Assembly: GCA_937974135.1 (NCBI GenBank)
Contig: CALJIH010000006.1
Span: forward strand, 1-44,015
DNA length: 44,015 bases
Source of the DNA: an uncultured Cocleimonas sp.
GTDB lineage: Bacteria > Pseudomonadota > Gammaproteobacteria > Thiotrichales > Thiotrichaceae
Direction of reading: 5' to 3'
Shown: positions 37,723 to 41,442 of the stretch, piece by piece
How the letters are laid out: each line of letters starts with the position of its first letter
Position numbering within the stretch: the stretch's first letter is position 1
Notes under the pieces: model-generated
Database searches by the model: none
Told to the model about the DNA's origin: nothing
The model's input: the letters and a program-made list of their open reading frames with translations, nothing else
Made by a program: the position numbers and the translations under genes

Positions 37723-39081
37723 ATGTGCGAATGGAGAATAAAATTAAATGTGGTCTGCATCACAGTGCTTTTGAGCGCTTGTTCTGCCACAAATACTCGT
37801 AATGAGTTTAGCAATCATATTGAGTACCCTTCTGTTACTCAAACAAGAGCAACAAACATATTAGCCTGTTTTGGAGATATGCTTACTGCTTATCGCACTA
37901 AAGGTAACACTACAAACCCATTAAGATTGGCAGTAATAGATGTAAAAGACGCCACTAGTGTCTCATCTGCAAGCTATCCAAACAATGAGATTCCTTATAA
38001 TTTTACCGATATGACTTTGGGTTTAGTGTCGCGCATAGGTGGCCCAATTCGTATTGCACACATTCCAAAAAGTAATGAATTACTTGATGCTGCAAGATAT
38101 AAAAGCATCGATCCTAAAGGCAACCCTTTCTTAGGCTTATACAAACCATCACATTACAATTACGCAACAATACAACTTTACGGTGCTTTAACAGAATACG
38201 ATCGTATTCTTAGTAATAACAAAAACAGCGCTACAGGCGCATTTGAATTTGGTAGTGGTACGGGCGAAACAAATTTAGAAGCCACATCTAATAAAGTGAC
38301 GAATGTAGCTCGTATGACTATGGATTTTAGAATTGCCAGTTCTAGTGTTGGTGATGTAGTCAACAATAGTAGCTCCACAAATACAGTTCAAGTATATCAA
38401 AAAGGTAAAGACCTATCTTTTGGCTTGAGCGTAGATGGCAACTCAGTTGGATATAGCTCAGAAAGATCCATAGTAGATGCCAGACATAAAGCAATTAGGT
38501 TATTAATTGAATGGGGAATCGTTGAAGCACTAGGAAGATATACCTATGTGCCTTATTGGAAATGCCTTCCAAATTCAAGAAATAGATCTCAAATTGGCTT
38601 TAAAGATATTGTTGCATCTGACAGTTTGTATGATTTTAGCAATATGCTTTTAAGAGCTGGTTCAATTTTCAAGAACCAAGAATCAAATCCAGCCTTAGTA
38701 GATAGGAGAGATAAACTCTTAATTAACGCCGTTATGTCTGACTTTATGAATGCAGAATATATAGATGATGGTGTTCGTAAAACAGTAAGAAGACCTGAAA
38801 AAGACACTCCTTTGGTTCAACGTAAAGTTGTTGACGGTAAAGTTATTGACACAAAGTCTATGATTGATGGAAAAAGTACGGTCAGAAGAAATCTACTGAA
38901 CCATTATCGAGTAGATAATCGCTTTGCTAAAATGTCAGATAGCGTCTTATTAAAAAACCTTCACCAACAATTTATCAAAGCAAGAATTATAGATAAGAAA
39001 GATCCAGTTATGGGGTTAAATACCTATATGGCTCTGTGGTTGAATGTACCCGTAAAAAAAGGAGCTCGCTGGAATCGATAG
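37723..39081 (+). CDS. CsgG/HfaB-like outer-membrane lipoprotein with extended C-terminal domain
   Basis: Lipobox LLSAC; LRLAVIDVKDAT; TIQLYGALTEYDR; ARMTMDFRIASSSVGDVVNNSS; RHKAIRLLIEWGIVEALGRYTYVPYWKCL. Confidence 0.65.
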   Translation: MCEWRIKLNVVCITVLLSACSATNTRNEFSNHIEYPSVTQTRATNILACFGDMLTAYRTKGNTTNPLRLAVIDVKDATSVSSASYPNNEIPYNFTDMTLGLVSRIGGPIRIAHIPKSNELLDAARYKSIDPKGNPFLGLYKPSHYNYATIQLYGALTEYDRILSNNKNSATGAFEFGSGTGETNLEATSNKVTNVARMTMDFRIASSSVGDVVNNSSSTNTVQVYQKGKDLSFGLSVDGNSVGYSSERSIVDARHKAIRLLIEWGIVEALGRYTYVPYWKCLPNSRNRSQIGFKDIVASDSLYDFSNMLLRAGSIFKNQESNPALVDRRDKLLINAVMSDFMNAEYIDDGVRKTVRRPEKDTPLVQRKVVDGKVIDTKSMIDGKSTVRRNLLNHYRVDNRFAKMSDSVLLKNLHQQFIKARIIDKKDPVMGLNTYMALWLNVPVKKGARWNR

Positions 39082-39154: not shown

Positions 39155-39538
39155 GTGAATAATTTATATCGAAAAATCGCACAAATTATTTTATCAATCT
39201 TACTGACTTCATTGGTGGTGCCATCGGTATTTGCAGCGATCGCTTTTTCAGGGGATTCAGTTAACTCTCTATCAGTTTCCAGTAATCGCTCAGAAAATAG
39301 CTATCAATATCTCATCGAAATTGATATCAAAGGTATAGATACTTCCAAGGTTACCTTTGAGATCGAGTATCAAACGCTATATCTCTTAGCTTATCAAGGA
39401 AGTATAGTGTCAGAAGTTGCAATTTCAGGAGCACAAGTCATGCGTTTAGCCTATGACTTCCCAACCAATGCCGATCTTAAAAATTATTTCAGAATAAATC
39501 ATCCCAATAAAATTATTATCAGTATTCCAAAGGCTTGA
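39155..39538 (+). CDS. Exported Hsp20/alpha-crystallin-like protein
   Basis: Signal peptide (..VPSVFA), then YQYLIEIDIKGIDTSKVTFEIEYQTLYLLAYQG...MRLAYDFPTNADLKNYFRINHPNKIIISIPKA, matching the sHSP layout; start is GTG. Confidence 0.65.
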   Translation: MNNLYRKIAQIILSILLTSLVVPSVFAAIAFSGDSVNSLSVSSNRSENSYQYLIEIDIKGIDTSKVTFEIEYQTLYLLAYQGSIVSEVAISGAQVMRLAYDFPTNADLKNYFRINHPNKIIISIPKA

Positions 39539-39627: not shown

Positions 39628-40203
39628 ATGTTTAAGAAACTACTGGTCTTTGTATTATTATTTACTTTACCTACCATTTCAGTTTTAGCGCATACTGAAC
39701 ACGAAGAAATTCAAGTAAAAAGTTCATTTGAAGTTAATAGTCGGCAGCAATTAAGCGCAATTTCAATGGTATGGTTGTATGACACTTTTTCTAGTGAAGA
39801 TATGCTTCAACATGAAAAAGACATCAATCGCCTTGCCAAGGTGCTCATTAGCGATCTATCTCGGTTTAATTTTTACACGCGCTTAAATTCTGGAGATCGT
39901 CGTTTAGTAGCCAATAGAATCAATAAATACAAACTGAGAAAAGTGAAAGATAAGGACAACAACCTTGCATTAGAATTAAGTTTCACCTTGTTAATTAATA
40001 AACCGATTGATATTTCTAAAATAAAAAACATTAAGATAGATCATTCAGACCCAACGGGCAGAGGCATTCTTTTTTATGACAAAGCAGAAGATATCAGTCT
40101 AGCTACAGTCTTAAAATCCAAGTGCAGGTCTAAGCTAAAAGAGAAGGCTGAGTTTATAGAAGGACAATTTCCACAAATTGCTAATGTCACTTGTCGAACT
40201 TAA
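39628..40203 (+). CDS. Exported DUF1007-like protein
   Basis: Signal peptide; AHTEHEEIQVKSSFEVNSRQQLSAISMVWLYDTFSSEDML is a DUF1007-type N-terminus. Confidence 0.65.
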   Translation: MFKKLLVFVLLFTLPTISVLAHTEHEEIQVKSSFEVNSRQQLSAISMVWLYDTFSSEDMLQHEKDINRLAKVLISDLSRFNFYTRLNSGDRRLVANRINKYKLRKVKDKDNNLALELSFTLLINKPIDISKIKNIKIDHSDPTGRGILFYDKAEDISLATVLKSKCRSKLKEKAEFIEGQFPQIANVTCRT

Positions 40204-40251: not shown

Positions 40252-41442
40252 ATGAATATCAGAAAACTTCATTTTTTTGCGTTTCTACAATTGTCCTTAA
40301 TTCTATTCTTGACGGCATGTGGAGGTGGCTCATCAAACGACTTTACCGAGCCTGAAGATCCGCCAGCTTCTGAACTAAATCGTGGCGACCTAATCAGTAG
40401 CAGCTTTATAAGCAACAATCAGATTCTGCTTCGACCATACTCAGTTGATTCTTATAAAATTATTTATTCAACGGTTGACACCAATAATAATCAAATAAAC
40501 GCATCAGGTTTGTTAAGTATCCCTAAAAAAGCCTTAGGAGCGAAAAGTCCGTTAGTAAGTTACCAACATGGCACCATTTTTACTGATGCTAGAGCCCCTT
40601 CTAACGATATTAGCTCAATCCAAGGTATTGGAGTATTAGCAGGAGCAGGCTATATCGTAAGTTCACCAGATTACTTGGGTTACGCTGAATCTACAGCAAT
40701 TTTGCATCCTTATGTTCACGCAGATAGTTTGGCCAGCGCATCTATAGACATGCTTCGTGCCAGCAAAGCGTTTTTGGCTAACCAAAATATAGAAATAAAT
40801 GATCAGTTATTTCTTGCGGGCTATTCAGAGGGAGGTTACGCAACCATTGCTTTGCAGAGAGAACTCCAAAATAGCTTTTCTTCTGAATTCACCGTAACCG
40901 CATCTGCTGCAGGCGCTGGCCCATACAGTTTATTGGAATCAGCAAGATTCTTTGCAAACCTACCAATTAACAATAACCCTTCTTATATGAGTTTTGTGAT
41001 CAAAGCCTACGATACAATTTACTCGTTAGATCAAATTGATGAAATATACCAAGCGCCATTCCGTGACATCATTAATACTTCATTTGATGGCTCAAGATCT
41101 GGCAGTCAAATAGATGCACTATTAACATCGACAACAGCCGATTTATTCGAACCAGAGTTTTTGAGTATTCTACAAGGCTCCGAAAGTCATCCGCTTAAAG
41201 ATGCATTAGCATTAAATAATGTTTTTGATTGGAGACCAAATGCACCGACACGTTTATATCATGATGTTCAAGACGAGATTGTGCCTTATAGCAATACCGT
41301 AAAAGCATTAGAGAGCATGCAAGCAAATGGGGCTACGGATGTTAGTTTGAGAACATGCCCTTTAAATGGACATGTCGCATGTGCGGTCCCTTATGTGTTA
41401 GATGCGTTGAGCTTCTTAAATACCTATGCAGAAGATTTATAG
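40252..41442 (+). CDS. Lipoprotein alpha/beta hydrolase (secretory-lipase-like)
   Basis: Lipobox LTACGGG; SYQHGTIF; FLAGYSEGGYATIAL (GxSxG); late His in NGHVAC. Confidence 0.85.
   Translation: MNIRKLHFFAFLQLSLILFLTACGGGSSNDFTEPEDPPASELNRGDLISSSFISNNQILLRPYSVDSYKIIYSTVDTNNNQINASGLLSIPKKALGAKSPLVSYQHGTIFTDARAPSNDISSIQGIGVLAGAGYIVSSPDYLGYAESTAILHPYVHADSLASASIDMLRASKAFLANQNIEINDQLFLAGYSEGGYATIALQRELQNSFSSEFTVTASAAGAGPYSLLESARFFANLPINNNPSYMSFVIKAYDTIYSLDQIDEIYQAPFRDIINTSFDGSRSGSQIDALLTSTTADLFEPEFLSILQGSESHPLKDALALNNVFDWRPNAPTRLYHDVQDEIVPYSNTVKALESMQANGATDVSLRTCPLNGHVACAVPYVLDALSFLNTYAEDL

Follow-up and report, generated by a model that had tools for sequence, protein, structure and literature searches.

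An exported alpha-crystallin domain protein tied to a CsgG/HfaB-type operon in the genus Cocleimonas

Background

CsgC and CsgH, the periplasmic inhibitors of curlin aggregation, are seven-stranded beta-sandwiches. Both families carry disulphide cysteines, as a CxC motif in CsgC and as a distant pair in CsgH, and CsgC works via positive charge (PMC4838910). CsgC is restricted to Enterobacteriales and Aeromonadales, so that curli-like systems of other groups mostly do without it (PMC3521004). Nucleation of CsgA and FapC is also inhibited by monomeric transthyretin and DNAJB6, which are unrelated beta-sandwich or holdase proteins (PMC8729806). Another related arrangement is the HfaA-HfaB-HfaD system of Caulobacter, in which a CsgG-like protein, HfaB, goes with small exported subunits. 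The passages considered from a paper on this holdfast anchor (PMC6707917) mention no alpha-crystallin domain (ACD) protein. We found no report of a periplasmic or secreted bacterial small heat-shock protein (sHSP) in the literature within reach, which covers few subscription journals, and no literature on Cocleimonas with curli.

Here we analyze a stretch of 44,015 nucleotides from an uncultured Cocleimonas sp. of the Thiotrichaceae (contig CALJIH010000006.1), referred to below as the window. It encodes an ACD protein that is exported, tied to a CsgG/HfaB-type operon and known from one genus.

Results and discussion

The exported protein and its fold

The open reading frame at 39155..39538 (forward strand, GTG start) encodes 127 aa, with a predicted mature form of about 100 aa. 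Sequence comparison indicates that it is a real gene, because two further Cocleimonas genomes have, at the corresponding position, orthologs with 37-38% identity over the alignment (39-40% in the search), and because dN/dS is about 0.16 between these two, Cocleimonas flava and an uncultured Cocleimonas. A Sec signal peptide of the non-lipoprotein type is predicted at residues 1-27 (39155..39235, forward strand) from the sequence and its orthologs. The N-terminus, MNNLYRKIAQIILSILLTSLVVPSVFA/A, can be read as n-, h- and c-regions with a V-F-A cleavage site (VFA/A), and the lipobox cysteine is absent. In the alignment, both orthologs also begin with a signal peptide, although its letters differ, which bears out the Sec signal proposed in a preliminary description of this DNA. 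The protein is probably periplasmic. Its mature part is free of cysteines in all three orthologs and is mildly acidic (pI 5.2-6.1).

Residues 40-126 (39272..39532, forward strand) are predicted to form an alpha-crystallin-type beta-sandwich of seven strands. The single sequence matched neither PF00011 (Hsp20) nor the CsgC and CsgH models of Pfam at E <= 10, and gave no meaningful match to NCBIfam or, by phmmer, to PDB sequences. Its best Pfam line was C2_TCB1 (E 0.035), far under the cut-off, and this candidate was dropped after the fold search. A profile built from the three orthologs was then used over 369 genomes of the class at E <= 0.1. Hsp20 proteins made up 14 of its 34 non-self places, and the 13 of these that were checked lie above the Pfam Hsp20 cut-off. 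Hsp20 genes are a handful among thousands per genome, so this proportion is not due to chance. Profile-profile alignment (hhalign) of the orthologs gave E = 2.6e-8 with cytosolic and E = 1.5e-12 with exported Hsp20s, the strands corresponding one by one, compared with E 0.39 for CsgG, an unrelated control; the Hsp20 rows used here were themselves matches of the ACD profile, which somewhat favours the match; the fold search does not depend on how these rows were chosen. Among PDB sequences the profile ranked chloroplast sHSPs first, at a non-significant E of 0.32.

The AlphaFold2 model, obtained from a three-sequence input, has a mean pLDDT of 71.7 (about 82-93 in most of the core) and a pTM of 0.57. 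Its strands (40-47, 51-59, 67-71, 74-81, 94-101, 112-116 and 119-126) follow in ACD order. When this model was compared with the PDB by Foldseek, the best 50 matches were all sHSPs (best E 4.4e-5), and neither CsgC nor CsgH was among them. That the mature part folds as an alpha-crystallin domain, as the preliminary description had read from a few motifs, is well supported by the profile searches and the predicted structure. The Pfam check proposed there gave a divided answer: the Hsp20 relationship emerged through the three-ortholog profile, while the single sequence missed PF00011 as well as CsgC/CsgH.

The protein shares strand order with the Hsp20/alpha-crystallin family, and with exported Hsp20s it also shares export and a signature, FP/LP-x-x-A/V-D plus a terminal I/L-P-K/R. 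Unlike members of PF00011, it escapes detection by that model and has a reduced build. About a dozen mature residues precede the domain, which leaves no N-terminal arm. The canonical place of beta6 is taken by a short beta5-beta7 loop, the region being about 10 residues shorter. The C-terminal I-X-I/V motif is missing: the window chain ends in SIPKA, and the ortholog ends read IPKINQK... Because arm, beta6 and IXI tail are missing or shortened, large oligomers of the sHSP type are unlikely.

Other Hsp20 proteins, exported and cytosolic

A clear signal-peptide-like start was seen in half of the 14 Hsp20 matches (L038, L040, L043, L051, L053, L065 and L078). The ACD alignments start after the signal peptide, and thus this enrichment in exported Hsp20s is not caused by it. 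A Sec signal on an sHSP, which had been noted as unusual, is therefore uncommon but not unique. The signal-peptide-bearing Hsp20s are spread over several gammaproteobacterial families. No CsgG-like neighbour was found within 7-13 kb around the seven genes; linkage to a CsgG-like operon sets the Cocleimonas protein apart from these relatives. Regular pairing of exported Hsp20 and CsgG outside Cocleimonas was considered and rejected, as it was seen neither among the exported-Hsp20 loci nor among the non-Cocleimonas CsgG-like loci examined. When the whole phylum was searched with a mixed profile, most of the top loci held ordinary cytosolic Hsp20s, and 2 of the 29 had a membrane-anchor-like N-terminus. 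In L101 and L112, the Hsp20 appears to be membrane-anchored. Further Hsp20s, without signal peptide, are encoded by C. flava and the uncultured Cocleimonas, which suggests that the exported copy is specialised. A PF00011 search of the window's own genome gave no match.

The operon and its conservation

Three genes on the forward strand precede the ACD gene. P1 (36833..37192) encodes a small exported protein of 119 aa, rich in Gly, Ser and Ala, which is a candidate major subunit. It has degenerate N-A-x-A-x-G...A-G-S-I repeats and a C-x-C motif that is invariant in all five copies (window, L027, L028 and L069). P2 (37247..37672) encodes a strongly acidic exported protein of 141 aa with the conserved tail GSVIIPPGTSADTIIILNQNEGDSIAIQR, and is a candidate export substrate or nucleator. 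The third gene (37723..39081) encodes a putative CsgG/HfaB-like outer-membrane lipoprotein pore of 452 aa, with an extra C-terminal region, a lipobox LLSAC and a Cys20 that is invariant over 11 aligned sequences. Directly downstream of the ACD gene lies a gene for a DUF1007 protein with a signal peptide (39628-40203), followed by one for a lipase-like lipoprotein (40252-41442). The DUF1007 gene is missing from this place in the two other Cocleimonas genomes.

Detection of the pore protein by library models was poor. PF03783 reached E 0.12, under the cut-off, and NCBIfam, its HfaB model included, gave no match for the window protein; the HfaB model touched 6 of the 11 aligned relatives, every time below the cut-off. 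The HfaA and HfaD models were unmatched. Its profile found only CsgG chains among PDB sequences, each at E of about 0.25. Alignment with E. coli CsgG by hhalign gave E 3.1e-5, and the model, of low confidence (mean pLDDT 49), had 22 PDB matches at E <= 0.001, all of them CsgG. By profile and predicted structure, then, the neighbour of the ACD gene has the CsgG fold, in agreement with the preliminary description, and the two genes have stayed neighbours in three genomes of Cocleimonas.

Among the 11 other genomes of the genus, convincing ACD orthologs were found in two, Cocleimonas flava DSM 24830 and the uncultured Cocleimonas. The CsgG-like protein encoded directly upstream of each is 70-73% identical to that of the window, and homologs of P1 and P2 precede it. 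Thus, the order P1-P2-CsgG-ACD is kept in all three genomes carrying this CsgG type. This CsgG type and the ACD gene occur together in 3 of the 12 genomes and neither occurs in the other 9, a count from which one ACD line in G005 (E 0.006, within a 591-aa frame) was left out. The gap from CsgG to ACD is 25-73 nt across the three genomes. It measures 73 nt in the window, where a scan of the gap found no terminator-like site; in the promoter and terminator scans, site numbers were no higher than in shuffles. The four genes are probably co-transcribed.

The operon of Kangiella sp. HZ709 (L069) is similar, with P1 in two copies, P2 and a CsgG-like gene (41% identity) in the same order. It differs in that ACD is absent from the operon and undetectable in the genome. 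Therefore, ACD is not obligatory, and the system functions, or at any rate survives, in its absence. CsgG/HfaB-like genes beside small exported proteins are widespread in the family and class, and ACD was found in none of the non-Cocleimonas CsgG-like loci examined, which include the nearest relatives of this CsgG outside the genus. In L029 and L090, the pore gene is followed by the gene of a different small exported protein, Pfam-unmatched where tested.

Exchange between Cocleimonas species

Compared in 100-nt steps, the C. flava and uncultured Cocleimonas sequences are 53-84% identical over P1, P2 and most of CsgG. Identity climbs to 92-99% where roughly 100 codons of CsgG are left and stays there across the whole ACD gene, after which come one step of 84%, one of 92% and then unrelated sequence. 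The tract is about 0.9 kb long (L027, C. flava, about 6825-5923, vs L028, uncultured Cocleimonas), and the rest of the operon is 70-80% identical. The dS of ACD is 0.12, compared with 1.1-1.5 for sdaA, aat, trxB, CsgG and P2. Both the high identity of the block within a more diverged operon and the low dS indicate a recent exchange between species of ACD together with the C-terminal part of CsgG. Such exchange fits an accessory gene spread by CsgG-anchored recombination and co-adapted partners alike. A second tract (L027 8972-8772 vs L028) with 87-97% identity lies just upstream of P1 and includes its signal peptide; beyond it, the identity of mature P1 falls to about 60%.

Comparison with curli

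The Cocleimonas protein resembles CsgC and CsgH in being exported, about 100 residues long and made of a single seven-stranded beta-sandwich, and in the position of its gene beside exported-subunit genes and a CsgG-type pore, although these subunits are candidates and P1 does not qualify as a curlin from its sequence. It differs from both in having no sequence or profile similarity to them, in lacking the disulphide, and in charge: ACD is mildly and P2 strongly acidic, which is not the basic pattern of CsgC. Kinship with CsgC/CsgH was rejected, since Pfam gave no match (PF10610, PF21112) and both hhalign, with E 0.085 over 19 columns against E. coli CsgC, and the cysteines speak against it. 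The CsgE and CsgF models showed no similarity to ACD. In the three Cocleimonas genomes and that of Kangiella, CsgC was not found over the cut-off and CsgH had no match; nor was CsgE found over its cut-off in the Cocleimonas genomes. A classical curli system was also rejected: CsgE is lacking, no curlin-repeat model is matched, and P1, which has no curlin repeats, could not be aligned with CsgA.

Possible role of the exported protein

Nearly all ACD proteins that have been characterised are chaperones. The reading we favour, with a probability of roughly 45%, is that the exported protein acts as a periplasmic holdase dedicated to the secreted subunits of the operon, doing the job of CsgC/CsgH with a different beta-sandwich. 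A stripped-down ACD, without arm or tail and with a short beta6, would be exported to the periplasm. Its beta-sandwich groove would transiently hold unfolded P1 and/or P2, independently of ATP, and would delay their aggregation until the CsgG/HfaB-type pore takes the subunits out. P1 and P2 are assumed here to be amyloid subunits; as clients they are putative, as is the anti-aggregation activity of ACD. With no CsgC, CsgH or CsgE over the cut-off in these genomes, the anti-aggregation slot would otherwise be empty. The ACD fold, the CsgG fold of the neighbour, the kept gene order and the co-occurrence in 3 of 12 genomes count for the holdase, and the precedent of transthyretin and DNAJB6 (PMC8729806) may be added to them. 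Against it count the Kangiella operon without ACD, the exported Hsp20s that stand alone elsewhere, the non-curlin nature of P1, the acidic ACD and P2 as opposed to the basic CsgC, and the 73-nt gap to CsgG in the window, where the downstream genes are close too. More tentatively, we suggest that in this operon type the exported ACD replaced CsgC/CsgH, a functional amyloid being guarded by an eye-lens fold.

Several other explanations were weighed. The protein may be a general periplasmic small heat-shock protein with no specific client, whose gene came to the end of the CsgG operon by chance or insertion. The exported Hsp20s without CsgG neighbour in other Gammaproteobacteria, the Kangiella operon without ACD, and the movement of ACD and the CsgG C-terminus between species as a block, like an accessory gene, would all agree with this. 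Nevertheless, we regard it as somewhat unlikely: in 12 Cocleimonas genomes ACD never occurs without the CsgG operon, and gene order was kept despite divergence of ACD to 38% identity. It is also unlikely that the sandwich serves as a binding module rather than as an anti-aggregation holdase, either in a pore partner whose role is structural or in gating, comparable to CsgE/CsgF, or in a substrate of CsgG displayed at the surface. The different small exported proteins that L029 and L090 encode right behind the CsgG-like gene, the undetectable CsgE and the exchanged block, which links ACD with the C-terminal part of CsgG as co-adapted partners might be, point in that direction. The lack of similarity to the CsgE and CsgF models and the usual chaperone nature of the fold speak against it.

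The marked divergence of the gene raises a different reading: an accessory gene that evolves fast and can be exchanged, serving for example subunit-type specificity or coding for a surface protein particular to a strain, with an ACD fold that is incidental to what the protein now does. Between the window and C. flava, identity is 38% for ACD and 73% for CsgG, and the C. flava and uncultured Cocleimonas proteins are 96% identical next to genes of far higher dS. Gene exchange is common, however, and does not in itself imply an incidental fold, and the low dN/dS in the recent pair indicates constraint; this reading seems quite improbable to us. Least credible is another Ig-like sandwich in place of the alpha-crystallin domain. 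The protein was missed by every HMM library and single-sequence search, and its model was built on three sequences with a modest pTM, but the Hsp20 profile matches, the hhalign values and the sHSP matches of Foldseek all stand against a different fold.

If the dedicated holdase is real, ACD would be a ready answer, in one lineage, to the question of what, if anything, prevents subunit aggregation in the periplasm in many curli-like systems without CsgC, and the sHSP fold would gain a defined role outside the cytoplasm. The system would also make a small and clean test case, with an ACD reduced to its minimum, lacking both arm and tail, and only two candidate clients.

Related loci in other genomes

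Other CsgG/HfaB-like loci show further small genes. In L092, a small exported protein similar to those after the pore gene in L029 and L090 is found a few genes further on. Within the family, a terminal GCDC is frequent in the small curlin-like proteins encoded beside related CsgG genes. DUF2807 (head GIN domain) proteins are encoded a few genes from CsgG/HfaB-like genes in two unrelated genomes (L090 7562-8344 and L092 7366-8139). A recurring three-gene unit is present in L030-L034, of the same bacterial family, and is mostly unannotated by Pfam and NCBIfam. It consists of a curlin-like protein of about 95 aa, a protein of about 100-120 aa ending in EGDVIQxNNC(R), and a CsgG/HfaB-like lipoprotein.
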